Part shown: positions 2,044-30,190 of the stretch, piece after piece
How positions within the stretch are numbered: position 1 is the stretch's first letter
Layout: every line of letters starts with the position of its first letter
DNA from: Actinomycetes bacterium
GTDB lineage: Bacteria; Actinomycetota; Thermoleophilia; Gaiellales; Gaiellaceae
Length of the DNA stretch: 64,000 nt
NCBI GenBank assembly: GCA_026708005.1
Contig: JAPOVR010000125.1
Span: forward strand, 1 to 64,000
Direction: 5' to 3'
Made by a program: the position numbers and the translations under genes
The notes under the pieces: model-generated
The model's database searches: none
What the model was told of the DNA's origin: nothing
The model's input: the letters and a program-made list of their open reading frames with translations, nothing else

Positions 2044-2097
2044 CGAACATGATGCGCACGCTTCTAGGCCCGGCTTTGAGCGAAGAGCCGGTCGGAG

Positions 2098-3373: not shown

Positions 3374-3532
3374 TAGCCGCAGGGCTGCCCTGGACGCCAT
3401 CCTGTGGCGCTATGCGAGGCGCTGCAGCCGGGGGAGACCCAAGCTGAAGCTCTGTTCTGGCCTCGCCAGCGGCAGCGCGGGCTGTCGGTCAGCGGGTGAG
3501 AGACTGGCCTCTCATCCGGCAGGAGCCCCGGT

Positions 3533-4915: not shown

Positions 4916-5037
4916 CTCGCTTCCCCTGCCTGTTGTACCGGCTCGCTCGAGTACGGCCGTAGGCCAGCGTCTCGCGGAAAGGTAACGCCTCCGGGATGGG
5001 ACCAGAGCCCGTGCTGGTTTGGCTTGCAGCCAGACCA

Positions 5038-5167
5038 GGCCGCTGGCGCTTCCGTTCGCCTCCCGCCAGGCGCGGGACTGGTGGCCCACCGCAACAGCCG
5101 AGGACACCTGGCCGCCAGGAGAGCGGGCGGGAGCGCTCGAGAGGGTCGCCGCGACGCCCTACCTCGA
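5038..5167 (+). repeat. Direct repeat copy 2 flanking the KAP NTPase gene
   Basis: Second copy of the 3239-3369 segment, again reading PLALPFAS...ATPYL on the plus strand. The frame runs on to a stop near 5219 but has no plausible start, so this is a fragment of a related gene or the product of a duplication. Confidence 0.7.
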
Positions 5168-5602
5168 GACATCAGAGCCGCCTCGCGCTCAAAACGACCT
5201 CGCTCGAAGGGTGCCCTAGGAGGCTTTGGCGAAACGTCTGATCCGCGTAGCTGGGTGGGTTGCGGGACGGCCGCCGAGCCTTTTACCCCAAAGATGGGGC
5301 TGCTTTACCCCATGCCGACTCGGGGCTGGCTGGGCCGAGGACGCCCCAGGGTGCCACACTCCTAAAGGGGCCGAAAGGGATAGCTGACAGAGCCCTGGCC
5401 TCGACTTAGCCTGGTGGGCACAGGCCAGGCTAGAGGTGAAGGCGTTGTCGGGTTGTTCAGGGACGGAAGGGGCACCCTGGAGGCCCCTGCTGGGGCCAGA
5501 TGCCCCGCCGGGCGCTTGTGGCCGGTTGCCCAGCCCCCAGCTAGCCCCAAGACACTGACACGGCCGGTAGCCGTACCGCCCCAAGCCCGTTGACCATCTC
5601 GC
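5168..5602. other. Gene-free gap with a small C4/G4 hairpin
   Basis: No supported gene. The nonamer TTTACCCCA occurs at 5282-5290 and again at 5304-5312, and CCCC 5286-5289 can pair with GGGG 5296-5299. The mobile-element content ends about here, so an element boundary may lie in this gap, but no att-type duplication was identified. Confidence 0.35.
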
Positions 5603-7027: not shown

Positions 7028-7683
7028 ACCTTGCGCAGCTCTGGATCCGCCTGACGGCCGTAGCCCTCGAGGATGTCCTGGACGGCGTTCATGTCTGTTT
7101 CGCTCAGAAGCGGCGGCTCGCCGAGCTGAAGCGCCCGCCAGTACTGCTCGGCCAAGTTCTCGATCTCGACAAGGAGGGCAAGCGCCGACGCCGCGCTGTC
7201 GTCGATGACGATCGCTCCGTGATGGGCGAGCAGGCAGGCGCGACGATCGGCGAGCGCCTCGATCGCAACATCTGAGAGCTCCTGCGTCGTGGGCGTCGCG
7301 TACGGAGCGCAGCGTATCTCCGAGCCGCCGGCCAGCCCAACCAGGTAGTGAATCGCCGGAATCGGCAGCCCGTGAATCGCGAGCGTCGTGCAGCACATTG
7401 GATGGGCATGGATGACGGCACATGCCTCCGACCGCCACGCGAGGACGTCGCGATGGATCCGCCATTCGGTCGACGGAAGCCGCTCGCTCTCGTACTCGCC
7501 GTCGAAGCCCATGCTGACGATGTCGTCGGCCTCCATCGACGCGTAGTCGAGCCCGGACGGCGTGAGCAGAAAGCCATCGCCGGCGCGGACGCTTACGTTG
7601 CCCGACGTGCCCTGGTTGAGGCCTAGCGCATTCATCGCGCGACAGGTTGCGACGATCTCGTTTCTCAGGGCCACATGGTTCAT
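7024..7683 (-). CDS. Class II aldolase (L-fuculose-phosphate aldolase-like)
   Basis: A 219-residue class II aldolase/adducin-fold enzyme that would split a ketose 1-phosphate into DHAP and an aldehyde. It shows the phosphate-binding LNQGTSGNVSVR near the N-terminus, TPSGLDY, the zinc-binding pair in VIHAHPMCC, and a third ligand region at LLAHHGAIV; all match the FucA/AraD pattern. Length is normal for FucA. It is first in a two-gene operon with the kinase (4-nt overlap) and diverges from the peptide-type ABC transporter, so one regulatory gap may serve both. Confidence 0.85.
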   Translation of the reverse strand: MNHVALRNEIVATCRAMNALGLNQGTSGNVSVRAGDGFLLTPSGLDYASMEADDIVSMGFDGEYESERLPSTEWRIHRDVLAWRSEACAVIHAHPMCCTTLAIHGLPIPAIHYLVGLAGGSEIRCAPYATPTTQELSDVAIEALADRRACLLAHHGAIVIDDSAASALALLVEIENLAEQYWRALQLGEPPLLSETDMNAVQDILEGYGRQADPELRKV

Positions 7684-7895
7684 CGCGCGCCAGAGGGTTC
7701 GAGGGCCGCTATCTGCGAGAGTCCATGCGGCCCGGCAGCGACTCTACCGGCTCGGCTCCCACGCTTGATTTCGAGCCTGGCGCGCACTTACGATGCAGGC
7801 TAGAGCGACGGAGTCGGCAGCAACCCTGCCGCAAACTTTGTCCCCGAGCGCCCGTCCAAAAACGTTATAGGCGTCTCTACGAGAAGGGAACGCGC
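7684..7895. promoter_or_regulatory. Divergent intergenic region between aldolase and ABC transporter operons
   Basis: This 212-nt gap must hold the promoters of both the minus-strand aldolase/kinase operon and the plus-strand transporter operon. A strong ribosome-binding site, GAGAAGGGA at 7881-7889, lies six bases before the ATG at 7896. No clear operator palindrome was identified. Confidence 0.5.
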
Positions 7896-9743
7896 ATGAC
7901 GGACCATGAAAAGAGCCAGCAAATATACCAGCTCGGCATGCATGCAATTCGCGGCACCATGTCGCGCAAGCAGCTGCTCAAGCGGGCCGCGGTGCTTGGC
8001 ATCGTGCCGTCGGTGGTGGCGCTGCTCGCAGCGTGCGGCGGCGACAGCGTGGCACCGCCACCAGCCGAGCCCGAGGCGCCGCCTGCCGACCCCCCGGCCG
8101 ATGCACCCGAGCCAGCACCCCCGGCTGCCGCAGACATCGGCGATTCGCTGGTCATCCTCGAGACGGAGATCGCGCCCGGTCTAGACGGCGAAGGTACGTC
8201 GTTCGGCCAGATCTCGACGCAGACTGCGCTGGCGCAGCTGTACGAGCACCTTGTTCAGCCTATGCGCACCGAGGACGCCAATGGCGTCCTCGTTCCCGAG
8301 TTCGGCACATACGAGGGACGGCTCGCAGAGTCCTGGGAGCAGAACGGGCTCGAGTGGACATGGAAGCTCCGCGAAGGCGTCATCAGCGCGGCCGGGAACG
8401 AGCTCACGACGAAGGACATCGAGTACTCGCTCGCGCGCATCAAGGCGTTCAGCCCGATCCCGATCGGGTGGTTCCTGATGACGGTGGCCTCGATCATGTC
8501 ACTCGACCTGCCGAACACAGATCCCAGCGAGCGTGGACTTGCCGACGAGTTCGAGATCGTCGACGACTACACCTTCATTCTTCGCCAGATGGAGCCGAGC
8601 CCGAACCTCCTGACCGTGCTTCCGGTCGTCTCGCTCGGAATCTACGACTCGGCGAAGATGCTCGAGAACGCAACCGACGAGGACCCATTCTCACGCGACT
8701 TTGCCGATCAGGTCGACTCGGCCGGCTTCGGCGCATACTCGATCACCAACTGGGATAAGGGCGAATCCATCTCAATGACCGTAAACCCGAACTACTTCCG
8801 CGGCGAGCCCGAGTTCAAGAACCTGACCTTCCGTCGAGTGCCGCAAGCGGGCGCGCGGGTGACCGCGATCCAGAGCGGTGATGCAAACGTCACCACCGGT
8901 CTCTCACCGAAGGAGTTCCACGAGCTCGACCAGAGCGACGCCGTCGACGTGCTCGGCTGGCTCGGCAACGTGTTCGTGGCGCTCGGGCCCAACTACAAGT
9001 CCGAGCCGTGGGCCGGAGGTGGCGACCCGGATACGTCGCGGCTGCTACGCCAAGCGCTCGCCTATGCGATTCCATACGACGACATCATCGAGCAGGACTT
9101 CTTCGGGCAGGCGATCAAGTGGAACGGCCTGATCAGCTCGAAGTTCTACGGCGCCGTTGATTTCGGCGACCGCTACAGCTACGACCCCGACCGGGCGCGA
9201 GAGCTCCTCGCAGAGGCCGGCTTCCCGGAGGGGACGGGTCTCGAAGGGCCGGGCCTCACGCTCAGCTATATCGCCGAACACGCCTCGTTCATCGAGCCCG
9301 TCGCGAACCGCATCCGAACGGCGCTCGCCGACGTCGGAATCAACATCGAGCTGGACCCGCTGCCGCAGACGCAGTTCGTCGACCGCGAGACGAACCTCGA
9401 CGACATCCCCTTCTCGCTGCTCGACCAGCAGGTTGCGATCGGGCCGGATGCCGGATATCAGTCACAGCTGAACCACGTCACTCCGGACAACGGCGGCCTC
9501 GACAACTCCGTGAACTACGCCAGTGCGGAGTTCGACGCCATCTATCTCGAGCAGAAGGTCAATCCCGACGTTGAATCGCGCCTCGCGCAAATGGAAGCGA
9601 TGCAGGCGATCTTGATCGAGGACCTTCCGCGCATACCAATCCTCGAGCGCGCATCACAGATCGCCGTGACGGCTGGCATACGAGGTTGGTCGCCGAAGCC
9701 GGACGGCTCGCGTGTTGGGGAGATCTGGACGATGCATACATGA
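7896..9743 (+). CDS. ABC transporter solute-binding lipoprotein, family 5 (DppA/OppA type)
   Basis: A 615-residue extracytoplasmic binding protein. A basic SRKQLLKR stretch leads into a hydrophobic segment and the lipobox LLAAC, so it is exported and lipid-anchored. A Pro/Ala/Asp-rich linker follows before the mature domain. Family 5 signs include LAESWEQNGLEWTWKLREGV, the DIEYSLARI segment, and DPDRARELLAEAGFPEGTG. The ATG at 7896 is preferred over an upstream in-frame ATG because of the adjacent ribosome-binding site and because the signal sequence then sits near the N-terminus. It starts a four-gene operon (binding protein, two permeases, fused ATPase). The substrate may be a peptide, sugar or small amide. 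Confidence 0.9.
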   Translation: MTDHEKSQQIYQLGMHAIRGTMSRKQLLKRAAVLGIVPSVVALLAACGGDSVAPPPAEPEAPPADPPADAPEPAPPAAADIGDSLVILETEIAPGLDGEGTSFGQISTQTALAQLYEHLVQPMRTEDANGVLVPEFGTYEGRLAESWEQNGLEWTWKLREGVISAAGNELTTKDIEYSLARIKAFSPIPIGWFLMTVASIMSLDLPNTDPSERGLADEFEIVDDYTFILRQMEPSPNLLTVLPVVSLGIYDSAKMLENATDEDPFSRDFADQVDSAGFGAYSITNWDKGESISMTVNPNYFRGEPEFKNLTFRRVPQAGARVTAIQSGDANVTTGLSPKEFHELDQSDAVDVLGWLGNVFVALGPNYKSEPWAGGGDPDTSRLLRQALAYAIPYDDIIEQDFFGQAIKWNGLISSKFYGAVDFGDRYSYDPDRARELLAEAGFPEGTGLEGPGLTLSYIAEHASFIEPVANRIRTALADVGINIELDPLPQTQFVDRETNLDDIPFSLLDQQVAIGPDAGYQSQLNHVTPDNGGLDNSVNYASAEFDAIYLEQKVNPDVESRLAQMEAMQAILIEDLPRIPILERASQIAVTAGIRGWSPKPDGSRVGEIWTMHT

Positions 9744-9811
9744 CGCTGGGCGGCGTCAACCACGACATGTAGCTCGACCGGCGCAGACGGGTCAAGGCGT
9801 AGCGACACAGC

Positions 9812-10825
9812 GTGTCCGGGTTCGTCCTTAGACGGCTCCTGCTGTTTCTGCCGCAACTGCTGGCGATCGCCATCGTTGGCTTCGCGTTGCTGCGCCTTCT
9901 CCCCGTCGACCCGGTCTCGCGCATCGTCGGTTCGTTTGGCACCGACGAAGCGCGGCAGTCCGCCAAGGAGACGATCGGGCTCGATCGATCGTTCGGCGAG
10001 CAACTCGGCAGCTTCCTCGAGGGTCTGCTGACGCTCGACTTCGGTGAGTCGTTCGTCTCGGGAGACTCGGTTCGGGCCGAGCTCGGCGACCGCATTCCAG
10101 TAACGCTTCAGCTGATCGGGATCGGCTTCGTCCTCGCGCTCGTGATCGCGATCCCGCTCGGCCGCTACATCGCGTCCAAGGTCGGCGGCAGAATCGAGAA
10201 GGTCACGACCGTCTATGCTCTCTTTGCAGGAGCGCAGCCCGATTTCTGGTGGGGCTTGATCTTCCTGTTCGTGTTCTTTTTCAAGCTCGGCTGGTTCCCG
10301 GCGCCGCTCGGCCAGCTCGACCCCACGCAGATCGCTCCAGACGGGCCGACCAGATTCATCTTCATCGACACGCTGGTCCATGGTCAGTTCGACCTGTTCG
10401 TGTCGGCGTTAAAGCACTACGCCTTACCCATCATCACGCTCACGTTCGTCCTGACCGGGCCCATTCTCAAGATCATGCGGCAATCGGCGCTGGACGTGAT
10501 CTCGTCCGACTACCTCCTGTACGCAAAAGCGTCAGGCTTCACGCCGAAACGGGTGCGACGGATGACCGCGCGCAACTCGTTCGCACCCGTGGTCACGATC
10601 ACGGGCGTCCTACTGGTCTTCGCGCTCGGCGGTGCAGTCTTGATCGAGACGGTCTTCGCTTTACCAGGCCTGGGGCGGTACGCCCTCTCGCGAACGCTCG
10701 ACACCGACTTCCCCGCCATCCAGGGCGCGATCGTGTTCATGGCCGCGTTCGGCCTCACCGTGTACCTGGTGATGGACATCCTCTATGCGCTGCTCGACCC
10801 GCGCGTGCGCCACTCCCGTGACTAG
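9812..10825 (+). CDS. ABC transporter permease (DppB type)
   Basis: A 337-residue inner-membrane permease starting at GTG 9812. The N-terminal helix (FVLRRLLLFLPQLLAIAIVG) is followed by a periplasmic loop with LGLDRSFGEQLGSFLEGLLTLDFGES, then the permease core. The conserved cytoplasmic coupling region is at YLLYAKASGFTPKRVRRMTARNS. About six transmembrane segments are visible. It pairs with the next permease to form the channel and is spaced 68 nt from the binding-protein gene. Confidence 0.9.
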   Translation: MSGFVLRRLLLFLPQLLAIAIVGFALLRLLPVDPVSRIVGSFGTDEARQSAKETIGLDRSFGEQLGSFLEGLLTLDFGESFVSGDSVRAELGDRIPVTLQLIGIGFVLALVIAIPLGRYIASKVGGRIEKVTTVYALFAGAQPDFWWGLIFLFVFFFKLGWFPAPLGQLDPTQIAPDGPTRFIFIDTLVHGQFDLFVSALKHYALPIITLTFVLTGPILKIMRQSALDVISSDYLLYAKASGFTPKRVRRMTARNSFAPVVTITGVLLVFALGGAVLIETVFALPGLGRYALSRTLDTDFPAIQGAIVFMAAFGLTVYLVMDILYALLDPRVRHSRD

Positions 10826-10828
10826 CCG

Positions 10829-11716
10829 ATGAGCGCGACTGACACCCAGCCCGAGCTTGAGTTCGAAGAGGTCCTGCGACCCGCCGGCTTCGGCGCGCGC
10901 GTAAAGGAGCTCCTGCGCACGAGCTGGCTGTTCAGGATTGGCCTTGTCATCGTCGTCATCGCGGTCATCCTGGCCATCATCGGTCCCTACATCGCGCGGT
11001 TCCCGCTCGAAACGGCGACCCTCGACACGAACGAGGGGCCCAGCTCGAAGCACTGGTTCGGCACCGACTCGAACGGCTTCGACATCTTCTCGCGTGTTCT
11101 CGCTGCGCCCCGGATCGACGTCAGCATCGCCCTCGCCGCCACCGCCATCTCCCTCGCGATCGGCTCGCTGCTCGGCCTGCTGACCGGCTACTTTCGCGGC
11201 TGGGCGGGCGAGTCGGTGATGCGCGTCGTCGACACAATCCAGGCGTTCCCGCTCTTCGTGCTCGCGATCATCGTCGTGGTCATGACCGGACGCAGCATCC
11301 AGAACGTCATCATCGTGATCGCTCTGCTAAACATTCCGATCTTCCTGAGGATGATGCGGAGCCAAGTGCTCTCGCTCCGCGAGCGAACGTTCGTCGAGGC
11401 GGCACGCTCGAGCGGAAGTCGTGAGCTCAACATCGCGTTCGGCCACGTGTTACCCAATGGCCTTTCGCCCGGGCTCGCGCAGGCGCCGATAACCATGGGC
11501 TTCGCCATTCTCGTAACAGCTGGCCTGTCGTTCATCGGCGCCGGCGTCCAGCCACCCACGCCCGAGTGGGGTGCGATGATCGCAAGCGGCGCTGACACGA
11601 TCGTGATCGGTGAGTGGTGGACGTCTGTATTCCCAGGGATCGCAATCTCTCTGACGGTGTTCGGCTTCGCGGTGGTCGGTGAAGGGCTCCGAGCGATGTA
11701 CCTGCGGCAGGGCTGA
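10829..11716 (+). CDS. ABC transporter permease (DppC type)
   Basis: A 295-residue permease with a hydrophilic N-terminus, an N-terminal membrane helix (about 32-52), the KHWFGTDSNGFDIFSRVLAAPRID segment typical of DppC/OppC, and five further helices. The coupling loop is RTFVEAARSSGSRELNIAFGHVLPN. Only 3 nt separate it from the preceding stop and 3 nt from the ATPase start, so it belongs firmly to the same operon. Confidence 0.9.
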   Translation: MSATDTQPELEFEEVLRPAGFGARVKELLRTSWLFRIGLVIVVIAVILAIIGPYIARFPLETATLDTNEGPSSKHWFGTDSNGFDIFSRVLAAPRIDVSIALAATAISLAIGSLLGLLTGYFRGWAGESVMRVVDTIQAFPLFVLAIIVVVMTGRSIQNVIIVIALLNIPIFLRMMRSQVLSLRERTFVEAARSSGSRELNIAFGHVLPNGLSPGLAQAPITMGFAILVTAGLSFIGAGVQPPTPEWGAMIASGADTIVIGEWWTSVFPGIAISLTVFGFAVVGEGLRAMYLRQG

Positions 11717-11719
11717 GCG

Positions 11720-13798
11720 GTGCTCTTCGTTCGAGATCTGTCGGTCGAGTACCCGGAAATCGGTAGAACGACCTACGCGGTCAACGATGTAAGCCTCGAC
11801 GTTCCTGCTGGTTCGGTGGTGGGCCTCGTCGGCGAGAGCGGGAGCGGCAAATCGACGCTGACGCTTGCCATCCTCGGCCTCACCCGCGGACGAGGCCGAA
11901 TCGCCGCCGGGAACATCGAGTTCGACGGCGAGAACCTGCTCGAGCTCTCGGAGGACGCCTGGCGCGAGATCAGAGGTGGACAGATCGGGCTCGTTCCCCA
12001 GAATCCCCGGGGTGCGCTCGACCCGGCGGAGCGGATCGGCATGCAGATCGAGGAGTACTACCTCGCGCATCGCGACGCCACGACTGCCGAGGCGAACGCA
12101 CGAGCGCTCGAGCTGCTGACGCTCGTGGGCATCAACGACCCCGAACGGCGGCTCCGCGCCTTCCCGCACGAGCTATCCGGCGGCATGGCTCAACGTGTGC
12201 TGATCGCGATGGCGCTCTCGTGCTCGCCGAAGCTGCTGATCGCGGATGAGCCGACCAGCGGCCTCGACGTCACCATCCAGGCCGAGGTGCTCGACGACAT
12301 GCGACGCTCCGTGGAGGCCGTCGGCTCGAGCCTGCTCGTGATCACGCAGGACCTCGGCATCGTGGCGAACTACTGCGACCGCGTCTACATCATGCACGCC
12401 GGCGAGATCGCCGAGGAGGCGCCGGTCGAGCGATTCTTCGAGAACGCCACGCACCCCGCCACGATCGCGCTGCTCGCCGCACAGGACCAGCACTACGAGC
12501 ACGAGCGTGTCCGGTTGCGAGGGCTGCCAGTCAATACGCGGAACCTGCCGAGCGGCTGCTACCTCCATCGACGCTGTCAGTTCGCCGATCATGCGGCCGG
12601 CTGTCATGACGTTAGGCCGCCGCTGACGGACGTGTTGCCCGATCATCGCGTTCGCTGCCATCGTTTCCGGGAGGTCCCCGAGCTCGCCGGGCGCCGAGCC
12701 GACGTTGGGACACCTGCCGAGAGCGCCGCTCCGCCTCATGCGCGGGGCGCAGCGCCTACCAACGGCGCACTCCTGAGCGTCGAGGGGCTCGTCAAGCACT
12801 TCCCCATTCCGGGCAGCGACGCGTACGTGCAGGCATGCCAGGACGTGTCGTTCGACGTTAAGCCGGGCGAGACCCTCGGAGTCGTGGGCGAGAGCGGCAG
12901 TGGCAAGACCACCCTCGGCCGCTGCGTCCTGCGCCTGCTCGAGCCAACAGGCGGCAGGGTCGTATTCGACGGCCGAGATCTCCACGAGCTCTCCAAGGGT
13001 GAGCTGCGCCAGCTCCGCAAGGACATGCAGATCGTCTACCAGGAGCCGTTCGATTCGCTGAACCCACTGCTCTCGGTAGGCCGCCAGATCCGCGAGCCGC
13101 TCAAGCTGCACTCCGATCTCTCGCGGAGCGAGCGAAGGGAGCGCGTGCACGAACTCCTGGGTCTCGTGGGCCTCCCGAAAGCCGTCGCCGACGCCGTGCC
13201 GCAGGGGCTTTCGCCAGGGACGCTCCAGCGCTGCTCGATCGCCCGAGCGATCGCGCCCAATCCGAAGCTCATCGTGCTCGACGAGCCGACGTCGGCCTTG
13301 CCGCCGGAGGCCGAGGCGGACATCATCAGGTTGCTCAACGACCTGCAGGAGCGGCTCGGACTCTCGTACATCTTCATCTCGCACGATCTCGCTCTCGTGC
13401 GGGAGTTCTGCAACCGCGTAGTCGTCATGTACCTGAGTCAGATCGTCGAGATCGGAACCCAGGAGGAGCTCTTCGCCCGGCCGCGCCACCCGTATTCGCG
13501 AGCGCTGCTTGCGTCGGTTCTGGAACCCAATCCCCGGGCGAAACGCGACGTCGGAGCGAGAGCGGAGCGACTCGAGGGCGAGATCCCCAGCCCGATCGAC
13601 CTCCCGAGCGGGTGCTACCTCGCCTCGCGCTGCCATTTCGTGCGTGACCGCTGCCGTTCAGAGCCCCAGGAGCTGTATCCGCTGGTGCCGGGGCACGATG
13701 TGCGCTGCTGGCGCGTGAGCGAGAACGATCTGACCGAGGCAGAGATCGAAGAGTCGCGGCGCAGGGTGGCGGCGAGCGCCAACCCGGACGCGGGGTAG
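11720..13798 (+). CDS. Fused two-domain ABC transporter ATPase (DppD-DppF fusion) with one degenerate site
   Basis: A 692-residue fusion of the two ATPases. NBD1: Walker A GESGSGKS (39-46), signature ELSGGMAQR (151-159), Walker B ending ADEPTSGLD (175-183). NBD2: Walker A GESGSGKT (390-397), Walker B ending [11 protein letters not shown]. The switch residue of NBD1 is Gln210 (ITQDLG) where His is expected, while NBD2 keeps His555 (FISHDLAL). NBD2 has the altered signature LSPGT (497-501) and a D-loop of SALPPE. In the head-to-tail dimer, NBD1's catalytic side faces NBD2's signature, so all defects fall on one composite site and the other looks intact. Cys-rich peptide-transporter C-terminal segments ([16 protein letters not shown]) follow each NBD. 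Confidence 0.9.
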
Positions 13799-13827: not shown

Positions 13828-14523
13828 TCACTCGAGCCGGTGGAACGGCGAGTCCTTGTCGGAGGCCTCGAGCCGACGGGCGATCCCTTCTGGAGGCATC
13901 GTCGTGACCCTGATGTGCGGCTCGGCGATCAGGAGCTCATCCCTCAGGAACATCGCGCTCCGAAGCGCGGTGATCGCCTCGAGCGTGTCACCGATGCTCA
14001 GCAAGAGTGGCGTGCTCTTGTCGATCTGCTCCCGGCGGGCGACTACCTCGGCCTCGGTGCCGATCTGCACGAGACAGCCTGCGCGTACGTCGTAGGAGAT
14101 CGCCGTTGCTCGCAGGTCGCCCGGCCCTCCCTCGGCGAACACCGGCAGCGCGAGCTGCGCAGGGCGTGGAAAGACGCGTACGCCCCGCACGCGGGCACCG
14201 TCGAGCGCCCCCTGCAGCTCAGCGACGAGACCGGCATCCTCGAGCGCGGCCGCACCCAAGACGAGCCCGATCCTCCCCTCCGAGAGCTGGTCGAGAACGC
14301 ATAGGTCTTCCGCGTCGCGCAAGGGATCGAGCGCTCGGTCGAGCTCGACCAGGATGCGCAGATCGCGCGTGCGGGCGACCGCGACGCTGCCGGCAATGAT
14401 CGGCTCGGATTCGCTGCGCAGCCAGACGAAGTCGTACAGCTTCCCCTCGATGTCAGCGACCGTCTCGGCAAGCTCTGCCGGAGGGACTCCGTTGACGTCC
14501 AGCGGACCGCACCCCAGATTCAT
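13828..14523 (-). CDS. Small divergent luciferase-like (LLM) partner protein
   Basis: A 231-residue protein starting at ATG 14523, overlapping the preceding LLM gene's stop as ATGA. It resembles a shortened LLM flavin monooxygenase: ARTRDLRILVELDRALDPLR followed by LCVLDQLSEGRIGLVLGA, the counterpart of the LD-x-L-S-x-GR-x-x-L-G-x-G strand. It lacks the usual N-terminal barrel strands and the S-E-H-H active-site region of its neighbour. Like the beta chain of bacterial luciferase it may be a non-catalytic partner, but that is inference. It is the last gene of the operon. A longer open frame upstream is antisense noise inside the LLM gene. Confidence 0.6.
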   Translation of the reverse strand: MNLGCGPLDVNGVPPAELAETVADIEGKLYDFVWLRSESEPIIAGSVAVARTRDLRILVELDRALDPLRDAEDLCVLDQLSEGRIGLVLGAAALEDAGLVAELQGALDGARVRGVRVFPRPAQLALPVFAEGGPGDLRATAISYDVRAGCLVQIGTEAEVVARREQIDKSTPLLLSIGDTLEAITALRSAMFLRDELLIAEPHIRVTTMPPEGIARRLEASDKDSPFHRLE

Positions 14524-15485
14524 GCCGCCACCCCCTGCTCGGAGATCGCCGCCAGGTGGCCCATGACGCTGTGGTCGAGTGGAACGCCACTCCACGCGAT
14601 CCGGGCGACCATCCGATCGAAGCCTCGGGCATGGATTGCCGCGAGGAAATCGGCGAAGTCCTCCGGCGTCTGGCGAAACCACTTCTCCTCGGCACTGGTT
14701 GCCTGCTGGAGCCGCTCACTCTCGGGATCCAGTAGCGGGTCGATGTCGCCCTCTCCCTCCTTCTCCCAGGTCGGGGTGTATTCCCAGCCGATGTACTGCC
14801 AGAAGGCGAAGTCGTGCGGTGCGACAGCTTCGGGCGGCGCGGAGCCGTCGTCCGAGACCCAGCACTCGCGAATCAGCGTGAGCTCATGCGCGCTCTGGGC
14901 ACGAAACTCGTCACCCCACTCGAGTGCCCTGGTCATCGGCACCGCCGAGTCGATCAGCATTGGTACGTCGAAGCGGAGCGCTCGGTCGAGCCCCGGCTCG
15001 CTCGCGGTGCAGATGATCACCTGCTCTGGCTCGAGCACCTTCAGGAGCTCCTCGAGCATTGCGTCCATCAGCTTGCCGCGGCGCCGACGCTCGACGTTCA
15101 AGCCCATGAACTCCTCGCGCCTGTAGCCGAGCGCAATACCGAGGCGAAGCCGCTCGACAAGCGAGCCGAGCGAGCGGACCTGCCGCGCCAGCCGCTCGCC
15201 GTCGGCGAGCGGCAGAAGCAGCGCCGCGGTACCGATATTCAGCGTCTCGGTCGCAGCGAGCAATGAGCCGGCGAGCACCATGAGCGACGGGCAGTAGCCG
15301 TCGGCAACGAAATGGTGCTCAGAGAGGAACACCGACTCGAGACCGAGCGCCTCCGCCCTCCTGGTGTCCACGAACGCTCGGCGGTGGCTCGCGGTCCACG
15401 TGAAGTCGCACGGCGGAGAGGTATTGAGGCTCACCAGCCCCAGCCCGAGCTTCGGGATAGGGCGTTGACCCTTCGCGCTGCTCAC
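14520..15485 (-). CDS. LLM-class flavin-dependent monooxygenase
   Basis: A 321-residue luciferase-like TIM-barrel enzyme using reduced flavin and O2. Family signs are ALGLESVFLSEHHFVADGYCPS with the catalytic-type His, the IGTAALLLPLADGERLARQVRSL strand-helix, and the RLGIALGYRREEFMGLNV segment with a flavin-binding Gly/Arg. Start is GTG 15485, overlapping the upstream stop by 4 nt (GTGA). Placed between a hydantoinase B and a diverged LLM-like protein, it probably oxidises an intermediate in the same pathway, conceivably N-heterocycle ring opening by analogy to RutA. That analogy is not proven by sequence. Confidence 0.8.
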   Translation of the reverse strand: MSSAKGQRPIPKLGLGLVSLNTSPPCDFTWTASHRRAFVDTRRAEALGLESVFLSEHHFVADGYCPSLMVLAGSLLAATETLNIGTAALLLPLADGERLARQVRSLGSLVERLRLGIALGYRREEFMGLNVERRRRGKLMDAMLEELLKVLEPEQVIICTASEPGLDRALRFDVPMLIDSAVPMTRALEWGDEFRAQSAHELTLIRECWVSDDGSAPPEAVAPHDFAFWQYIGWEYTPTWEKEGEGDIDPLLDPESERLQQATSAEEKWFRQTPEDFADFLAAIHARGFDRMVARIAWSGVPLDHSVMGHLAAISEQGVAA

Positions 15486-17284
15486 ACCAGTTCTCCTTTC
15501 TTGTCGCGCTCGTCGCGCAGCCGGGCACGCGCTTCCTGTGTGGCTGGCACATCGACCGCGAGCGACTCGTCGAGCGCTTGGCCGGCGAACACGACGCCAT
15601 ATATATCGCGCGCTCGCTCCGGACTGATCCAGCAGCGCAGAACGTCACGGCGCGCGAGCTCCGGGTCGCGATCGAGCGGGTCACCGTAGCCCCCGCCACC
15701 GCTCTGGAGCCCGACGATTCCCTCACCCACCGCCAGCACGGGCGCGCCCTCGGCGGCCATGTTCTCCTCGGAGCCGTCGGCGTGCAGGCGGATCGCGCCC
15801 GCCGGAGCCGCCGAGCCGCCACCCCGCACGCCGGCCGGCGGGTGGAAGTGCCCGTCCCCCTGGTAGATCGCGGTCATCTCGGTGTCAACTGGCCGATACG
15901 CCATACGCAGACCCGAGGCGCCACGCTGTCTCCCTGCCCCCTCGGAGTCGATCCAGACCCGTACATCGTCGAAGCGGATCGGGTACTTCTCCTCGAGGAC
16001 CTCGATGCTCTCCCGGTAGACGAGCCCAGCAGCGACTGACTGAACGTAGGTAAGCCAACCGTCGCTACTCGCCCCGGCCGGGCCGCCCCCGCCTCCACCC
16101 ACGAGTTGGTTGATGAACGGCGCGTCGTCGCGCCTGGGGTCGGTCCCGGAGATCACCGCGTATCCGGGCGCCGAGCCCACGTTGCCTTCGGCGAGGCCGA
16201 ATCCCTCGCCGAGCTCTGCGAACGCAGCCTGAATGAGGTTGACCATCCGCTCGGCCACGTTGGTCGTCGCGACGGAGCACGAAGCCGGAAAGCGCGGCCC
16301 GCCCACGATGCAGTTCTCTCTGAGCTGTATCCGGATCCGCCGGAAGCTGCCGTCGTTGTGGGGAAGGGACGGATCGAGGCAGTTGAAGACGCCGAGGAGC
16401 ACGCTGGCGACAGCCGTTGCCCGTGACAGGTTGAGGCCTGCGGGAACGCAATCTGGATTGTCTGTCACGTCTACGTCGATGAAGCCTCCGTTTGGATCGA
16501 TGTCGATCACCGCCTGAAGAGGAATCCCCTCCGGCACGACATCGATCGGGTCATGTGTTCCGCGGCCGATGATGCGGCGCTTTGGCAACTCGGAGATAGC
16601 CGCGACGACCCGACGCTCCGAGTACGCAAACCACTCGTCAACGAACCAGCGAATCGTCTCGAGCCCATGAGTCGCGACAAGCTCCCGAACGCGACGCTCG
16701 CCGATCCGGGCGGCGCCGAGAATCGCGAGGAAGTCTCCGTACCACTGATCCGACACGCGTATCCGTCGGCGACACATGCGGACGATGTCGTCGATCTCCC
16801 GATATTCGCGTTGGACGCGCACGCACGGGAAGTTCAATGCCCCCTCTTCGTAGATATCCCGTGCAGTGATCGAGTAGGTCGTCGGCAGAGCGTTCCCGCA
16901 GTCAGCCTGATGGGCCTTCACCACTGCTGTGAAGACATGCTCGTCGTCGACGAAGATCGGAACGAGGATGGCGTGATCCGCCGAGTGGCTGTTGCCCAGG
17001 TACGGATCGTTGTGAAGGAACGCATCGCCAAGCGCCAAGTCGGGATGAAGCTCGCTCATCGACTGGGCGAGAAAGTCCATGCCCCCGACATGGATGGGGA
17101 GACCCTCGGCCCAGGCCAGCAGCCGACCGTCTCCCGTCACGAGACCACAAGAGAAGTCCCGGCCCATGTTCAAGACGGCCGAGCGGCCGGAGCGGAAGAC
17201 GGTGTTCTCCATCTCGCGCACGATCGTGTCGACGCGGTTGGCAAGCACCGCAAGCGTCGTCATGTCTCGGGTTACGGCGCTCAT
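15482..17284 (-). CDS. Hydantoinase/oxoprolinase B-type subunit (HyuB family)
   Basis: A 600-residue HyuB-family subunit, the partner of the A subunit upstream (4-nt overlap). The N-terminus TREMENTVFRS-like region (VREMENTVFRSGRS) is followed by FSCGLVTGDGRLLAWAEGLPIH and the family block GDAFLHNDPYLGNSHSADHAI. The C-terminal part is rich in Gly (QLVGGGGGGPAGASSDG), as in ATP-dependent N-methylhydantoinases. Together A and B open cyclic amides (hydantoins, 5-oxoproline, related lactams) with ATP. Length is normal. Confidence 0.88.
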   Translation of the reverse strand: MSAVTRDMTTLAVLANRVDTIVREMENTVFRSGRSAVLNMGRDFSCGLVTGDGRLLAWAEGLPIHVGGMDFLAQSMSELHPDLALGDAFLHNDPYLGNSHSADHAILVPIFVDDEHVFTAVVKAHQADCGNALPTTYSITARDIYEEGALNFPCVRVQREYREIDDIVRMCRRRIRVSDQWYGDFLAILGAARIGERRVRELVATHGLETIRWFVDEWFAYSERRVVAAISELPKRRIIGRGTHDPIDVVPEGIPLQAVIDIDPNGGFIDVDVTDNPDCVPAGLNLSRATAVASVLLGVFNCLDPSLPHNDGSFRRIRIQLRENCIVGGPRFPASCSVATTNVAERMVNLIQAAFAELGEGFGLAEGNVGSAPGYAVISGTDPRRDDAPFINQLVGGGGGGPAGASSDGWLTYVQSVAAGLVYRESIEVLEEKYPIRFDDVRVWIDSEGAGRQRGASGLRMAYRPVDTEMTAIYQGDGHFHPPAGVRGGGSAAPAGAIRLHADGSEENMAAEGAPVLAVGEGIVGLQSGGGGYGDPLDRDPELARRDVLRCWISPERARDIYGVVFAGQALDESLAVDVPATQEARARLRDERDKKGELV

Positions 17285-19428
17285 GCCGGCTCCACGGGCG
17301 CGGCAGCTGTCGCAAGGTCGAGAGTAAGCAGATAATTCCCGGCGCCCGTCACGGACAGCGTCGACCCGGGGGGCACGACGATCGTCGTGGTCGGCTCGTC
17401 GACGATCGTGGGGCCGGTGAGGGTCACGCCCGTCGAGAGCTCGCTCCCCGCAAAACGTGGCGTGCCGTGCTGCCCGCTCTGACCGAAGAACGCCTCCTGC
17501 ACCGCGGTCGGCTCAACGGCGACGCCCCTGGCCAGTCCTTCGGGGCGCCCGTACTCCTCCCGCTCGAGCGCAACCTCGAGCCGTCCGACCCACGCGAGGC
17601 ACTCGACCCGCTGCCCGAGCTCGCGTACGCCGAGAATCTGCTCGTGCTGGATGTGGAAGGCCTCCTCGAGTTGGGCGGCCGCGTCCGACGCCCTCAGATC
17701 GAGCTCTGGCAGCGGGACTTCGAGGTCCCAGATCTGGTACGGGTAGCGGCACTGTGCGTAGAACGTCTTGGCGATGCTGCTCGCCTGGACATCCACCAGC
17801 GATGACGCGACGCCGTCGAGCTCGGCCGCGAGCTCATTCACGAGCTCACCGACCACGGCCCCGTCGAAGTCCGACGTGTCCGTGAAGTGGGTCCGTGCCG
17901 CTTCGGCGACGAGGTTGGCGAACTGGCCGCCGCAGGCGCTCAGCGCACCGGCGGTCCTCGGGACGAGCACGCGCTGACAGCCAAGCTCACGCGCGATCGG
18001 GGCGATCATCAGGCCGGCAGCGCCTCCGCCTGCGACAACGAGGCTCGTCCGCGGGTCGAACCCTTGCTTGACGGTCAGGTCCTTGATCGCGGAGACCATC
18101 AGCTCGGCGGCGATGACGAGCACCGAGCTCGCGGCCTCCTGGAGAGAGCAGCCAAGAGGCTCGGCGAGCTGGGCTCCGACCACCTCGCGCGCGGCATCGA
18201 GCGACAACTCGAGTCGACCGCCGGCGAAGCTGTGAGGATCGAGATAGCCGAGGACGACGGCGGCGTCGGTGACGGTCGGTGACGTACCGCCCCGCCCGTA
18301 ACAGGCCGGGCCTGGCGTTGAGCCGGCGCTCTGCGGGCCTACGCGAAGCAGACCGCCGGCGTCGATCCAGGCGATGCTGCCGCCGCCGGCACCGATGCTG
18401 CGAATGTCGACCGACGACACGCCGGTGAGGTGGCCGATGAAGCGCCCACCGATCCACGTGTCGCGCGAGCGCTGGATCTCGCCGCCGGTGATCAACCCGA
18501 CATCGAAGCTCGTGCCACCCGTGTCACAGACGATCACGTTGGGTGTGGCCGATTCCGGAGCCCCGTTGCGCTCGGCTTCTGCATACGTCTGTGCGGCGAC
18601 GGGCGCGAGCGAAGGACCCGAGCCGACCGAGTAGATCGGGCGCTCGATCACGTCCTCCGCGCGTGAAACTCCCCCAACCGAGTTGGCAAGGAAGAGGACG
18701 CCCGTGAATCCCTCGGCAGCGAGGTCATCGCGAAGCTGGCGAACGTGATCCTGCATGAGCGGCTTGAGCGAAGCGTCGATGCAGGTGCCCGATGCGCGCC
18801 GGTACTCGTGAATCACCGGGTTGAGCCGGTGAGAAACGGTGACCGGCACCTCTGGCCACACGCCCTCAACGAGCTCGGCGACCCGAAGCTCGTGGGCCGG
18901 GTTGACCACGGACCAGAGCAGGCAGACGCCGATCGCCTCGACGTCGGCCGCCCGCGCGGCCGCGAGCGCGGCTTCGACGCTCTGCTCGTCGAGCGGCGTC
19001 AGAATCGACCCCTCAGAGTCGACCCGCTCGGTGATCTCGAACGTCAGGTGGCGAGGCACATAGGGCTCTGGGTACGGCATGCGAAGGTTGAAGGGCTCGC
19101 TCTTGCCCCCCTCACGCAGAAGCAGGATGTCGGGAAAGCCCGCCGTTACGAGGAAGGCGGTGCGCGCGGCCTTGCCCTCCACGATCGCGTTGGTCGCGCG
19201 CGTCGTCGAGTACAGGAAGTACCCGCAATTTTGAATGAGGTCGGCGACGCTGACGTCGAGCTGCGAGCCGACGACCGCAAGGGCTTCTCGAATACCCTGC
19301 CACGCTCGCTCGAGGTTCGTCAGTGCCTTGCCGAGAACGAGATCTCCGTCGGGAGAGTTGACGACGACGTCGGTGAAGGTCCCACCGATATCGGCAGCGA
19401 TTCGGATACCGGCCTCGCCGCCTGCCAT
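17281..19428 (-). CDS. Hydantoinase/oxoprolinase A-type subunit (HyuA family)
   Basis: A 715-residue A subunit with an actin-like ATPase fold. It begins with RIAADIGGTFTDVVV (phosphate-1 loop) and has CDTGGTSFDVGLI (phosphate-2) and the family block GPACYGRGGTSPTVTDA. It supplies the ATP-dependent activation of the cyclic amide that the B subunit helps open. Start ATG 19428 abuts the RidA stop with no gap and its end overlaps hyuB by 4 nt, giving strict co-expression. Acetone-carboxylase-like subunits share the fold, but the adjacent HyuB favours hydantoinase/oxoprolinase. Confidence 0.88.
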   Translation of the reverse strand: MAGGEAGIRIAADIGGTFTDVVVNSPDGDLVLGKALTNLERAWQGIREALAVVGSQLDVSVADLIQNCGYFLYSTTRATNAIVEGKAARTAFLVTAGFPDILLLREGGKSEPFNLRMPYPEPYVPRHLTFEITERVDSEGSILTPLDEQSVEAALAAARAADVEAIGVCLLWSVVNPAHELRVAELVEGVWPEVPVTVSHRLNPVIHEYRRASGTCIDASLKPLMQDHVRQLRDDLAAEGFTGVLFLANSVGGVSRAEDVIERPIYSVGSGPSLAPVAAQTYAEAERNGAPESATPNVIVCDTGGTSFDVGLITGGEIQRSRDTWIGGRFIGHLTGVSSVDIRSIGAGGGSIAWIDAGGLLRVGPQSAGSTPGPACYGRGGTSPTVTDAAVVLGYLDPHSFAGGRLELSLDAAREVVGAQLAEPLGCSLQEAASSVLVIAAELMVSAIKDLTVKQGFDPRTSLVVAGGGAAGLMIAPIARELGCQRVLVPRTAGALSACGGQFANLVAEAARTHFTDTSDFDGAVVGELVNELAAELDGVASSLVDVQASSIAKTFYAQCRYPYQIWDLEVPLPELDLRASDAAAQLEEAFHIQHEQILGVRELGQRVECLAWVGRLEVALEREEYGRPEGLARGVAVEPTAVQEAFFGQSGQHGTPRFAGSELSTGVTLTGPTIVDEPTTTIVVPPGSTLSVTGAGNYLLTLDLATAAAPVEPA

Positions 19429-19818
19429 CTAGAAGATGCAGGTTGCGTCGATCTCGACACGCAGCTCTGGGAATGCAAGAGCCGATACCTCGACCAGCGT
19501 GCTCGCCGGCCGGTGGTAGCCAAAGTACTCTTCGCGGGCGCGAGCCACGGCCGCACGGTCACAGATGTCGGTCAGGTAGACGGTGATGCGTGCGATGTCG
19601 CTCCTTGTGGCGCCGCCAGCCTGGACCAGGGCGTCGATGTTGCGCAGCGTCTGCCGCGTCTGCTCGACGACGTCGTCGCCGCCGACAAGGCGTCCGTCCT
19701 GGTCATGAGCGACCTGCCCGCTGATCGAGAGGATGCGAGAGCCTGTGGCCAGCGTGGCTGGCGCAAACGGGCCGTCGGGCTCGGGCTGACCAGCTGCGCT
19801 CACGACCTCTGACGGCAT
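19429..19818 (-). CDS. RidA/YjgF-family enamine/imine deaminase
   Basis: A 129-residue RidA-family protein, normally a trimer that hydrolyses reactive enamine/imine intermediates to ketone and ammonia. It shows LSISGQVAHDQDG, the QTRQTLRNIDALVQAGGA helix, the HRPAS segment carrying the family Arg, and a C-terminal RVEIDATCIF with the conserved Glu. In this operon it would clear an imine released by the flavin or hydantoinase steps, as RutC does in pyrimidine breakdown; the exact substrate is unknown. Confidence 0.88.
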   Translation of the reverse strand: MPSEVVSAAGQPEPDGPFAPATLATGSRILSISGQVAHDQDGRLVGGDDVVEQTRQTLRNIDALVQAGGATRSDIARITVYLTDICDRAAVARAREEYFGYHRPASTLVEVSALAFPELRVEIDATCIF

Positions 19819-19863
19819 GTCTCTCCTCCGTGCTCCTGGACTCGCGCGACAAGGGCGAGCCGG

Positions 19864-21624
19864 CTACTCTGCGATCTCTGCGTACTCGGCCGTCGCTGCC
19901 AGCGGCGACGTGACCTCTCGGTAGGTGGTCTCGCGCGACGTGTAGACATCGACGACGGTCGGGCGGCCGCTCTCGACTGCCTCGGACAGCGCGGTGCGCA
20001 GCTCATTCGGCTCGTCCACACGGACGCCGTCACAGCGCATCGCACGCGCGATCTCGGCATGGTCGAAGCGCTCGAACTCCGACGCGAACGGACGGTCGCC
20101 CTGACTGTTGATCACCCAGCCGAGCGCGTCATTGTTGAACACGACCACGGTGATTGGCAAGTCGTTCTCGACGGCGCTCATCAGACCGTTGAACCCCATG
20201 GCGAAACCGCCGTCGCCGCACACGGCCACCGCCTGGCGATCGGGGAAGACGAGCTTCGCGGCCAGCGCTCCCGGTATCGCGTAGCCCATGCCGCCGATTG
20301 CCGCCGGCTGGATGAATGTCCCGGATCCCTTCGTCTGAAAGAAGTGCGTCATGAAGATGCGGTTCTCGCCGGCGTCGCAGGTGATGATCGCGTCGTCGTC
20401 GATGGCATTGTGAATGTCCTTGATGATCCGCTGGGGTAGGAGCGGCGCCGCGTCAGATTCAGCCTCGGGGCCGTCGAAGCCGACGTGCTCGAGGCGTGCT
20501 TCGTTCAGCAGTGCTTGCCGCTCCGCGTGTGCGCTCTGGCTAACGCCACCCGCTGCAGCGAGCGCCTCGCTGAGCTGCGTGAGCACGGGCCCCGCGTCGC
20601 CGATCAGAGCATGGTCGACCGGGAAGGTCCAGGACGCATTTCGCGGCTCGATGTCGATCTGGACGAAGCTCTGGCGCCGAGGGTCGAGCAGCGCCGGATG
20701 CTCGTTCGCCGTGTCGGTCGCGCCGAGCTTCGTTCCAACCGCGATCACGACATCGGCCTGTCCGACCACGGCGTTGGCGATCGGCAGACCGAAGTTGCCG
20801 ATGACGCCGAGGGCGAGCCCATGGGTCTCGCGCATGACGCCCTTGCCGGTTGCCGTCGTCGCAACGGGCGCCCCTAGCTGCACGGCAAGCTGCTCGAGCT
20901 CGCCGTAGGCCTGGCTCATCCGCACGCCGTTCCCCGCGACGATGACCGGGCGCTCGGCCACTAGCATTGTTTGTGCGGCTGCCTCGACGGCTGCCTCGGG
21001 AGCCGGCCCGACCACCACCGGAAGGTAGGGCGCGCTCGGGTAGAGAGCGGGTCGCGTCTTGGGACCAACCGCGCCGTTCAGCGCGTTGCCGTGATAGATG
21101 ACGGCGACGGGGCCGGGCTCTCCCGTGAGCGCATGCTTGACTGCGAGCTGGGTGACCTGCACGGCCTGCGCGGGGTCGCTTGCAACCATCGTCTCCTTCG
21201 TCACGCCAGCAAAGCTCCGCCTAGCATCGAAGGCACCCCACTCTCCCGTGCCCGTCTGATACGGACCGTGGTGTGAGTAGGGAGCACCGTCGGTGAAGTC
21301 GGTCAGTAGAAGCATCGGTGTGCTGGCCAGATGCCCTTCGATCGTTCCCAGAAGCGCGTTCGAGAGCAGAAACGCTCCCTGGCCCATCACCACGGCGGGT
21401 TTCCCTGTGAGGCGCCCGTAGACCTCGGCCATAACACCGGCGAGGGATTCCTCGCGAACGAGCACGGTACGCACGCTCGACGTGTGGTCGTACAGGGCGT
21501 CGAAGAGCTTGACCGTGTACCCACCGGGTATGCCGAACACCATGTCGATGCCCGCCCCTTCGAGCACGCGAATCACTGCTTCGGTGACGTCAACGTCCTC
21601 GTCGAATAGACGGTCTGTCGTCAT
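19864..21624 (-). CDS. Thiamine-diphosphate-dependent enzyme (acetolactate synthase/decarboxylase family)
   Basis: A 586-residue ThDP enzyme with the three classic domains. The N-terminal PYR domain has FGIPGGYTV and the activating Glu in VREESLAGVMAEVYGR. The middle domain has VIVAGNGVRMS and VVIAVGTKLGA. The C-terminal PP domain has the Mg-ThDP motif CGDGGFAMGFN, ending about 27 residues later in VVFNNDALG. It would decarboxylate or ligate a 2-oxo acid. It is the first gene of the six-gene operon, with a 45-nt gap to ridA. Sequence alone does not separate acetolactate synthase from benzoylformate/sulfopyruvate-type decarboxylases; the catabolic context favours a specialised decarboxylase. 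Confidence 0.82.
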   Translation of the reverse strand: MTTDRLFDEDVDVTEAVIRVLEGAGIDMVFGIPGGYTVKLFDALYDHTSSVRTVLVREESLAGVMAEVYGRLTGKPAVVMGQGAFLLSNALLGTIEGHLASTPMLLLTDFTDGAPYSHHGPYQTGTGEWGAFDARRSFAGVTKETMVASDPAQAVQVTQLAVKHALTGEPGPVAVIYHGNALNGAVGPKTRPALYPSAPYLPVVVGPAPEAAVEAAAQTMLVAERPVIVAGNGVRMSQAYGELEQLAVQLGAPVATTATGKGVMRETHGLALGVIGNFGLPIANAVVGQADVVIAVGTKLGATDTANEHPALLDPRRQSFVQIDIEPRNASWTFPVDHALIGDAGPVLTQLSEALAAAGGVSQSAHAERQALLNEARLEHVGFDGPEAESDAAPLLPQRIIKDIHNAIDDDAIITCDAGENRIFMTHFFQTKGSGTFIQPAAIGGMGYAIPGALAAKLVFPDRQAVAVCGDGGFAMGFNGLMSAVENDLPITVVVFNNDALGWVINSQGDRPFASEFERFDHAEIARAMRCDGVRVDEPNELRTALSEAVESGRPTVVDVYTSRETTYREVTSPLAATAEYAEIAE

Positions 21625-21736: not shown

Positions 21737-22645
21737 TCACGATCGGCCGTCGCGATGTGAGCCGAATTCGGGCGCGAGGCCAAAGCTGGCGAGATGAGCC
21801 TTCTGCAGGGTGATCGCCACCTCGTTCAGCTCGTGGACGCCTTCGGTGACGACGGAGCCGACGACGGTCCGTAGCGGTCGCTCCGCTGCGGGCGTCTCGA
21901 CCAGATCGAGGACGGCCTGCGCGACCTCGCGCGGATCCGGCCCATCTGAGGCTTGCACCAGCGCACCGGTGTGCTCGAACATGCCATCGCGGATCGGGTC
22001 GAGCTCGGTGTAAGCAGCCAGGCGCGACTCGTCGTCTGGCCCGATGATCTTGTCGAAGATCTCGGTCGCATACCCGCCCGGCTCGACGATCACCGAGTCG
22101 ATGCCCAGGGGCCGAAGCTCGTATCGATACACCTCGGCAAGCGCCTCGAGCGCATGCTTGGTTGCCGCGTAGGCACCCATGAACGGCACGGTGAAGCGGC
22201 CGAGGTTCGACGAGACGTGGATGAGCAGCCCGGAGCCCTGCTCCCGCATGTGGGGAAGCACGGCGCGGTTGACTCGCTGCACGCCGATCAGGTTGACCTC
22301 GAACAGACCCGCGAGCTTCTCGGCCGTGAACCCCTCGAGGTATCCGACGGCACCGACGCCGGCGTTGTTCACGACCACGTCGAGCCCTCCGGCGATGGCG
22401 ATCGCGTTGTCGACGGCGCCCTCGATCGAGGCAGGGTCTGCCAGCTCGAGCTCAAGCACCTCGAGCGCGGCTCCCTCGCCGTCGGCCCACTGCTGGAGCG
22501 TCGTGGCGGCGGCCTCGTTACGTCCGTGTGGCTCGCGCATCGTCGCGAACACGTGGCGGCCCGTGCCAGCGAGCAGACGCGCGGTCGCGAGGCCAAAGCC
22601 GCTGCTGGCTCCGGTTACGAGAACGGTCTGAGCTCTCTCACCCAT
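21737..22645 (-). CDS. Short-chain dehydrogenase/reductase
   Basis: A ~302-residue classical SDR. The N-terminal VLVTGASSGFGLATARL has the TGxxxGxG cofactor motif, VVNNAGVGAVG the NNAG motif, IHVSSNLGRF the catalytic Ser, and YAATKHALEAL the YxxxK pair. VEPGGYATEIF follows the active site. The Met at 22645 (MGERAQTVLV) is chosen because it sits just before the first strand; the open frame continues 18 codons upstream without family similarity. It is 112 nt upstream of the ThDP gene on the same strand and may be co-transcribed. Substrate unknown. Confidence 0.82.
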   Translation of the reverse strand: MGERAQTVLVTGASSGFGLATARLLAGTGRHVFATMREPHGRNEAAATTLQQWADGEGAALEVLELELADPASIEGAVDNAIAIAGGLDVVVNNAGVGAVGYLEGFTAEKLAGLFEVNLIGVQRVNRAVLPHMREQGSGLLIHVSSNLGRFTVPFMGAYAATKHALEALAEVYRYELRPLGIDSVIVEPGGYATEIFDKIIGPDDESRLAAYTELDPIRDGMFEHTGALVQASDGPDPREVAQAVLDLVETPAAERPLRTVVGSVVTEGVHELNEVAITLQKAHLASFGLAPEFGSHRDGRS

Positions 22646-22744
22646 CTGAAGGCGCGCCGGTCTCGATCCGAGTCCCGAGCACGCGGGAGCAGGATACAAA
22701 TCCCGCTCTCTCAGCTCTTGAGTTCTTGTAGAGTCACGCGGCAG

Positions 22745-30141: not shown

Positions 30142-30190
30142 AGCTCCTCCTTCTGCCCGCTGTGCTTTCCCGCGCACTGCAGCTGCAGCC

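Follow-up and report, generated by a model that had tools for sequence, protein, structure and literature searches.

Whether a compact group of genes encodes one degradative pathway, and for what class of compound, is the question raised by a 64,000-nucleotide (nt) stretch of the genome of a Gaiellaceae bacterium known solely through environmental DNA (Actinomycetota; assembly GCA_026708005.1, contig JAPOVR010000125.1, positions 1 to 64,000; hereafter the window). Six adjoining genes in it specify a thiamin diphosphate (ThDP)-dependent enzyme, a Rid-family protein, the HyuA and HyuB subunits of a hydantoinase/oxoprolinase-type enzyme, a luciferase-like monooxygenase (LLM) and a shortened LLM (the small LLM). 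With a probability of roughly 0.45, these genes form an operon, not described before, for the catabolism of an imported cyclic amide, lactam-like or imide-like, in which HyuAB would open the ring, the luciferase-like pair would perform an oxidation and the ThDP enzyme a cleavage. No paper on this gene combination was found in the open-access literature. The observational basis of this reading is the gene unit itself, the predicted competence of HyuAB, the two-gene LLM module and the types of partner gene that recur around it. Its new and transferable elements are the conserved module of an LLM with a shortened LLM, and a HyuAB clade to which no function has been assigned.

The six genes are transcribed from the minus strand in the order ThDP enzyme, Rid, HyuA, HyuB, LLM, small LLM (Table 1). 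A gap of 45 nt, containing the ribosome-binding-like sequence GGAGGAGAG, separates the ThDP and Rid genes; the Rid and HyuA genes abut at 0 nt (TAG followed directly by ATG), and each of the remaining junctions is a 4-nt overlap (ATGA for HyuA/HyuB, GTGA for HyuB/LLM and ATGA for LLM/small LLM). The first-pass annotation had described one 0-nt junction and three 4-nt overlaps and had taken the genes to work as a unit; on recheck these proved exact, and the junctions and overlaps bear out a single tight unit. All six reading frames are intact; by comparison, many of the other copies of hyuB in this genome are broken. A short-chain dehydrogenase/reductase (SDR) gene ends 112 nt upstream of the ThDP start on the same strand and may be the first gene of the unit. 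A simple scan for promoters and terminators around the operon returned nothing informative.

The LLM pair recurs in other genomes. A phylum-wide search returned a weak LLM relative in genome G644, and a follow-up search from this entry point gave four loci with an orthologous pair, L137 (G644), L155 (G764), L156 (G457) and L139 (G421), which belong to two other families of the same phylum. At the GC-rich locus L137 the pair was resolved with a codon-usage gene caller. In all five loci, the window included, gene order is identical and the two genes overlap by 4 nt. In an LLM tree of 45 rows, the window LLM groups with the LLM2 proteins of the four other genomes (support 99/97), and the small LLM proteins of all five loci also group together; for this second grouping the group table gives 99/97 and the drawn branch 85/93, and the long branch of the window small LLM makes its placement less sure. 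The pair that had been picked out in the window is thus real and conserved, as judged by its orthologues in four genomes, the shared order and overlap, and tree support. No orthologous pair was found in the searched genomes of the window's own family. Further LLM matches, at 33-48% over the N-terminal 100-150 residues (loci L011-L016 and L124, and haloarchaeal plasmids), were considered as orthologues and rejected because the tree puts them in other LLM groups; for the same reason their contexts, with coenzyme A (CoA) ligase, EthD, M24 and ThDP genes, are leads and not evidence.

The LLM keeps the luciferase-type EHHF motif, which the small LLM proteins do not have. Its nearest solved structures, by sequence and by fold (the model has a predicted local distance difference test score, pLDDT, of 57.5), are bacterial luciferases and luciferase-like monooxygenases, and it misses the cut-off of the NCBIfam luciferase alpha subunit model (42 of 600 bits). 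In the small LLM the Pfam match spans only 79 of 231 residues, and the predicted model (pLDDT 49) has beta/alpha barrel elements in the first half, where alone it is confident, the second half not being resolved. Loss of about a third of the fold is known from LuxF, also a luciferase-domain protein (PMC4432964). The small LLM is likely to be a non-catalytic partner subunit of the LLM, and in the window organism the two would form a complex.

In G457 a run of genes encodes 2-oxoacid dehydrogenase E1a, E1b, E2 and E3, a class I/II aminotransferase, the LLM, the small LLM, a Rid protein, a polar amino-acid ATP-binding cassette (ABC) importer and two SDRs, the Rid gene following directly after the pair, again with a 4-nt overlap. 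The part seen of the G421 cluster has E2, E3, the aminotransferase, the pair, Rid, importers and SDRs in the order of G457; because the two genomes are of the same genus, it does not count as independent. The G644 cluster comprises an aminotransferase similar to that of G457, an amino-acid importer, two SDRs, an oligopeptide importer, an M24 hydrolase, a second importer and four LLM-family genes including the pair, and that of G764 an M24 hydrolase, an importer, LLM genes, an oligopeptide-binding protein and E1, E2 and E3 genes. SDR genes are found near the pair in all four genomes. At a further locus of G421, L157 (G421:C76:8000-26000), two additional LLM genes, one of them 58% to LLM1 of G644, lie together with an oligopeptide importer and amidohydrolase-like genes; a G644-type cluster seems to be split over two contigs in G421.

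These clusters resemble the window in the order and overlap of the orthologous pair and, at the level of gene family only, in a nearby importer and SDR; those of G457, G764 and (for E2/E3 at least) G421 also have 2-oxoacid dehydrogenase genes, the counterpart of the ThDP-dependent 2-oxoacid enzyme in the window, and those of G457 and G421 a Rid gene. However, they are without HyuAB and the acetolactate-synthase-like ThDP enzyme and instead have a class I/II aminotransferase or an M24 hydrolase, and those of G644 and G764 differ also by their further LLM genes. Companions of the types seen in the window (a ThDP-dependent 2-oxoacid enzyme, Rid, SDRs and an oligopeptide or amino-acid importer) do recur in other families, where each orthologous LLM pair has some of them nearby. 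Because such genes are common, the shared partner types are suggestive, not decisive.

The second element of the argument is HyuAB. Aligned to the caprolactamase subunit CapB (6yra_B), HyuB keeps the Asp-His-Asp-His metal tetrad and the equivalent of Tyr136; in the alignment to 6yra_A, the two phosphate motifs and the adenosine motif are likewise present in HyuA (DIGGTFTD, DTGGTSFD and GSTPGP). Alanine mutants of the metal ligands of CapAB are inactive, and two phosphate-site Asp mutants nearly so (PMC8453981). Because the residues essential in CapAB are all kept, HyuAB is predicted to be competent for ATP-dependent ring opening, as had been proposed from the outset, and the metal tetrad in the B subunit together with the ATP motifs in the A subunit places it in the ATP-dependent HyuAB/oxoprolinase/lactamase superfamily. 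Its scores miss the caprolactamase cut-offs of NCBIfam (CapA, NF050156, 506 of 1000 bits; CapB, NF050157, 263 of 1000 bits), CapA being the best NCBIfam match of HyuA (ApcC, 279 bits).

In a tree of 36 HyuB proteins that included CapB and eight copies from the same genome, the window HyuB belongs to a clade of 23 rows (100/100) that excludes CapB and all eight copies; CapB pairs with an own-genome paralogue (100/100). Identity of the window HyuB is 46-60% to members of its own clade and only about 27-31% to the own-genome copies sampled. Searches of the PDB and NCBIfam returned no characterised member of this clade. Class III aminotransferase genes adjoin HyuB-clade genes at eight loci (L059, L060, L066, L118, L121, L159, L161 and L166), and the other neighbours, in genomes and on plasmids, are branched-chain or oligopeptide ABC importers, CoA-transferases and SDRs. 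Caprolactamase likewise adjoins an omega-aminotransferase (PMC6061476). Such neighbours fit a clade whose enzymes turn a lactam-like ring into an amino acid; the context supports this function and is no proof of it. The nearest HyuAB orthologues (57-60%) are in G031, G033 and G045, of the same family, and as far as their contigs extend they have neither ridA nor the LLM pair nor the ThDP gene beside them. Elsewhere in G033, at locus L062 (G033:C254, 448-6264), HyuA and HyuB are fused in one gene, 49% to the window pair, and an LLM gene and a serine/threonine dehydratase-like gene come after it; this is one further HyuAB-LLM neighbourhood, with an LLM from a different subfamily.

Of the 55 PF02538 (HyuB) matches in the host assembly (3.72 Mb, 177 contigs), many are fragmentary or interrupted by stops; the assembly also has about 40 luciferase-like and 18 Rid matches. 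The HyuB and LLM genes are unusually expanded in it, and decay is ongoing. We considered a general link of HyuAB with LLM or Rid genes in this genome and rejected it, the LLM and Rid matches not being generally near the other hyuB copies (loci L082-L114). At L108 (G000:C118:128000-147000; 988-10109), an own-genome HyuAB of the CapB clade adjoins class III aminotransferase genes or fragments and one Rid gene, and a 409-residue frame there holds several Rid domains.

The scheme below is inferred in its class of substrate, its sequence of reactions, the cofactor used by the LLM, the place of the small LLM as a subunit, the part played by the Rid-like protein and the supply by the importer. The neighbouring oligopeptide-type importer would bring in the cyclic amide. 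HyuA would activate the amide oxygen with ATP, and hydrolysis at the metal site of HyuB would convert the ring to an open-chain amino acid. A complex of the LLM with its shortened subunit would then oxidise the substrate or the ring-opened product, using reduced flavin or F420 from elsewhere; the Rid-like protein may act on or shield a reactive nitrogen intermediate, without the usual arginine route; the ThDP enzyme would decarboxylate or cleave the resulting 2-oxo acid; and the SDR would adjust the redox state. A tentative generalization, rather doubtful as it stands, is that the LLM and its shortened partner, conserved in several families of the phylum, constitute a novel kind of flavin- or F420-dependent oxidoreductase with two subunits, serving an undescribed import-and-degrade pathway for nitrogen-containing compounds, hydrolysis having here been taken over by the uncharacterised HyuAB clade to give a six-enzyme cyclic-amide route.

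Several observations weigh against the proposed operon. No second full six-gene set was found via the LLM, small LLM, HyuB or ThDP enzyme in a search that covered 101 relatives, 399 genomes of the class (ThDP enzyme and small LLM), 396 genomes of the phylum (ThDP enzyme and LLM), GTDB contigs (pattern scan for the LLM) and plasmids. The first-pass annotation had named confinement of the gene order to this one genome as a ground for refutation; in the collections searched, all of them samples, the order does appear to be so confined, and orthologous HyuAB and ThDP genes have other neighbours. Across the clusters, orthology has been shown for the LLM pair only, and the importer, SDR and ThDP matches are at the level of family. 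Orthologues of HyuAB occur elsewhere without the LLM pair, carboxylases are also to be found among HyuA-type enzymes, and neither an aminotransferase nor a flavin reductase was seen beside the operon.

The Rid and ThDP proteins add to these difficulties. By alignment, the Rid protein has Ser (-PAS- for -PAR-) at the position of the catalytic Arg105 that is essential for imine hydrolysis by RidA-type imine deaminases; since Ser replaces Arg, this usual reaction is not to be assumed. Ser occupies the position in about 10% of RidA proteins (PMC4433059), and the Rid proteins of G457 and G421 keep Arg. The relatives of the ThDP enzyme lie amid CoA ligases, ABC importers and lactonases: those of G291 (59-60%) and G384 (53-54%) sit among CoA ligase, CoA transferase, sugar-importer and hydrolase genes, and those of Rhodobacterales plasmids (47-48%) adjoin a second ThDP gene, an importer and a lactonase. 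The enzyme has the GDGGF...N ThDP motif and a Glu in a REES motif, and it reaches no NCBIfam equivalog cut-off, that for the acetolactate synthase large subunit included (best score 298 of 866 bits). It looks like a catabolic 2-oxoacid enzyme that serves several pathways. More distant relatives (37-40%) occur on the haloarchaeal plasmids of L122, L123 and L076, together with recurrent LLM, M24 metallopeptidase, EthD, cupin and HD genes, with an importer in two of the three and HyuAB close by in Haloferax gibbonsii; this looks like an undescribed haloarchaeal catabolic cluster.

The chief rival account, possible if doubtful, is that the locus is a patchwork in which LLM-pair and HyuAB modules with separate jobs were joined by chance, so that there would be no single six-step pathway. 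Each module is indeed otherwise partnered (importers and aminotransferases accompany HyuAB, CoA and sugar genes the ThDP enzyme, and 2-oxoacid dehydrogenase or M24 genes the LLM pair), and the lack of an orthologous LLM pair in the same-family genomes searched suggests acquisition by this lineage. However, five consecutive genes that abut or overlap, all of them intact despite the many broken hyuB copies in the genome, argue against a chance assembly, as does the recurrence around the pair elsewhere of importer, SDR, ThDP-dependent enzyme and Rid types.

Other accounts turn on what HyuAB or the LLM would do. HyuAB could be an ATP-dependent carboxylase of the acetone/acetophenone carboxylase kind, with the ThDP enzyme acting on the resulting keto acid; a ThDP 2-oxoacid enzyme would fit, and HyuA matches acetophenone (271 bits) and acetone (170 bits) carboxylase subunits, but the two-subunit layout, the better scores to caprolactamase and N-methylhydantoinase, the NCBIfam balance of CapA over ApcC and the absence of a third subunit gene make this unlikely. 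That HyuAB is a 5-oxoprolinase/hydantoinase paralogue of general nitrogen salvage, with the other genes incidental, would agree with the abundance of HyuAB genes in the genome; given the separate clade of the window HyuB and its low identity to the sampled own-genome copies, it is quite improbable. The resemblance to the Rut pathway, which the first-pass annotation had pointed out, did not withstand comparison and is the least credible, its chances being very small indeed. The LLM would here open a pyrimidine or other N-heterocycle via a flavin-oxide and the Rid protein would deaminate aminoacrylate, and LLM and Rid do co-occur both in the window and in G457 and G421. Yet the LLM is luciferase-like with no RutA match, the Rid protein reaches only 64 of 169 bits against the RutC model and lacks the Arg without which RutC is inactive (PMC8113886), and the operon has nothing RutB-, RutD-, RutE-, RutF- or RutG-like; the analogy was rejected on these grounds. 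The preferred reading remains an operon for an imported cyclic amide.

The candidate importer (7647-13798, plus strand) converges on the operon with about 30 nt between them; because it lies on the opposite strand, it is a neighbour and is not co-transcribed. Divergent from it, at 5603-7683, are genes that by eye encode an FGGY-type sugar kinase and a class II aldolase, and the importer substrate may therefore be sugar-like, not amide-like. At 12-15 kb from the operon, sequence alone points to a dihydropyrimidinase/D-hydantoinase-like amidohydrolase (33639-35192) and a class IV aminotransferase of the branched-chain/D-amino acid type (35933-36838). Broken-looking frames at 28689-31515 resemble by eye HpaB (4-hydroxyphenylacetate monooxygenase) and an M29/2,5-dihydroxypyridine dioxygenase, and are probable decaying aromatic-degradation genes.

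Table 1. Genes of the six-gene unit, the adjoining SDR gene and the convergent importer (window coordinates; aa, amino acids).
Feature	Position	Strand	Length	Remarks
ThDP-dependent enzyme	19864..21624	-	586 aa	Pfam TPP_enzyme_N/M/C; acetolactate synthase / 2-oxoacid decarboxylase fold family
Rid-family (YjgF/UK114) protein	19429..19818	-	129 aa	PF01042, 90 bits
HyuA, ATP-binding subunit of HyuAB/oxoprolinase-type enzyme	17281..19428	-	715 aa	Hydant_A_N + Hydantoinase_A + Hydant_A_C
HyuB, metal-site subunit	15482..17284	-	600 aa	PF02538, 408 bits
LLM, luciferase-like flavin oxidoreductase	14520..15485	-	321 aa	Bac_luciferase; EHHF motif
Small LLM-like protein, shortened	13828..14523	-	231 aa	Bac_luciferase, 29.5 bits vs cut-off 27.9
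SDR oxidoreductase	21737..22699	-		adh_short; probable true start at internal ATG near 22645
SBP_bac_5 lipoprotein, oligopeptide/nickel-type binding protein	7647..9743	+		PF00496, 177 bits; weak TIGR04028 match (53/468 bits); real start probably an internal ATG
Oligopeptide-type ABC permease B	9812..10825	+		36% to Opp-type permease of G644 cluster; Opp family by homology and gene order
Oligopeptide-type ABC permease C	10829..11716	+		39% to Opp-type permease of G644 cluster
Fused oligopeptide-type ABC ATPase, two ATPase halves	11720..13798	+		ABC_tran x2 + oligo_HPY x2; 42% to G644 Opp ATPases

If the operon acts as proposed, it would represent a new catabolic route for stable cyclic amides, relevant to polyamide and pesticide breakdown, and a widespread ATP-dependent ring-opening clade without assigned function would gain a testable context. 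The LLM pair would extend luciferase-like heterodimers beyond bioluminescence, and the prediction is clear: the small subunit should be needed for activity and have no active site of its own. The keeping of a serine-type Rid protein in a tight catabolic operon bears on the role of non-canonical Rid proteins.

Three known systems invite comparison. With the Rut pathway (rutABCDEFG) the operon shares a PF00296 protein and a Rid protein in one transcription unit; it differs in an LLM with no match to TIGR03612, in the Rid protein without the essential Arg, in the addition of HyuAB and the ThDP enzyme and in the missing RutB, D, E, F and G. The caprolactam cluster of Pseudomonas jessenii (PMC6061476, PMC8453981) has a two-subunit ATP-dependent enzyme whose essential metal and ATP residues are all kept here, together with an omega-aminotransferase; relatives of this HyuAB also adjoin importers and omega-aminotransferases. 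In contrast, the window HyuB belongs to another clade, far under the CapA/CapB cut-offs and without the vicinal Cys pair of CapB, no aminotransferase lies beside the window operon, and the passages of PMC6061476 considered mention no LLM, Rid or ThDP gene for the CapAB cluster. From LuxAB and LuxF the pair is set apart by its catabolic neighbourhood, the absence of lux genes, identity to LuxA that is only local and a heterodimer that is here a prediction. The LLM is nevertheless nearest to luciferase by sequence and by fold and keeps the EHHF motif, and the gene that follows it encodes a shortened paralogue without that motif, as LuxF is (PMC4432964).

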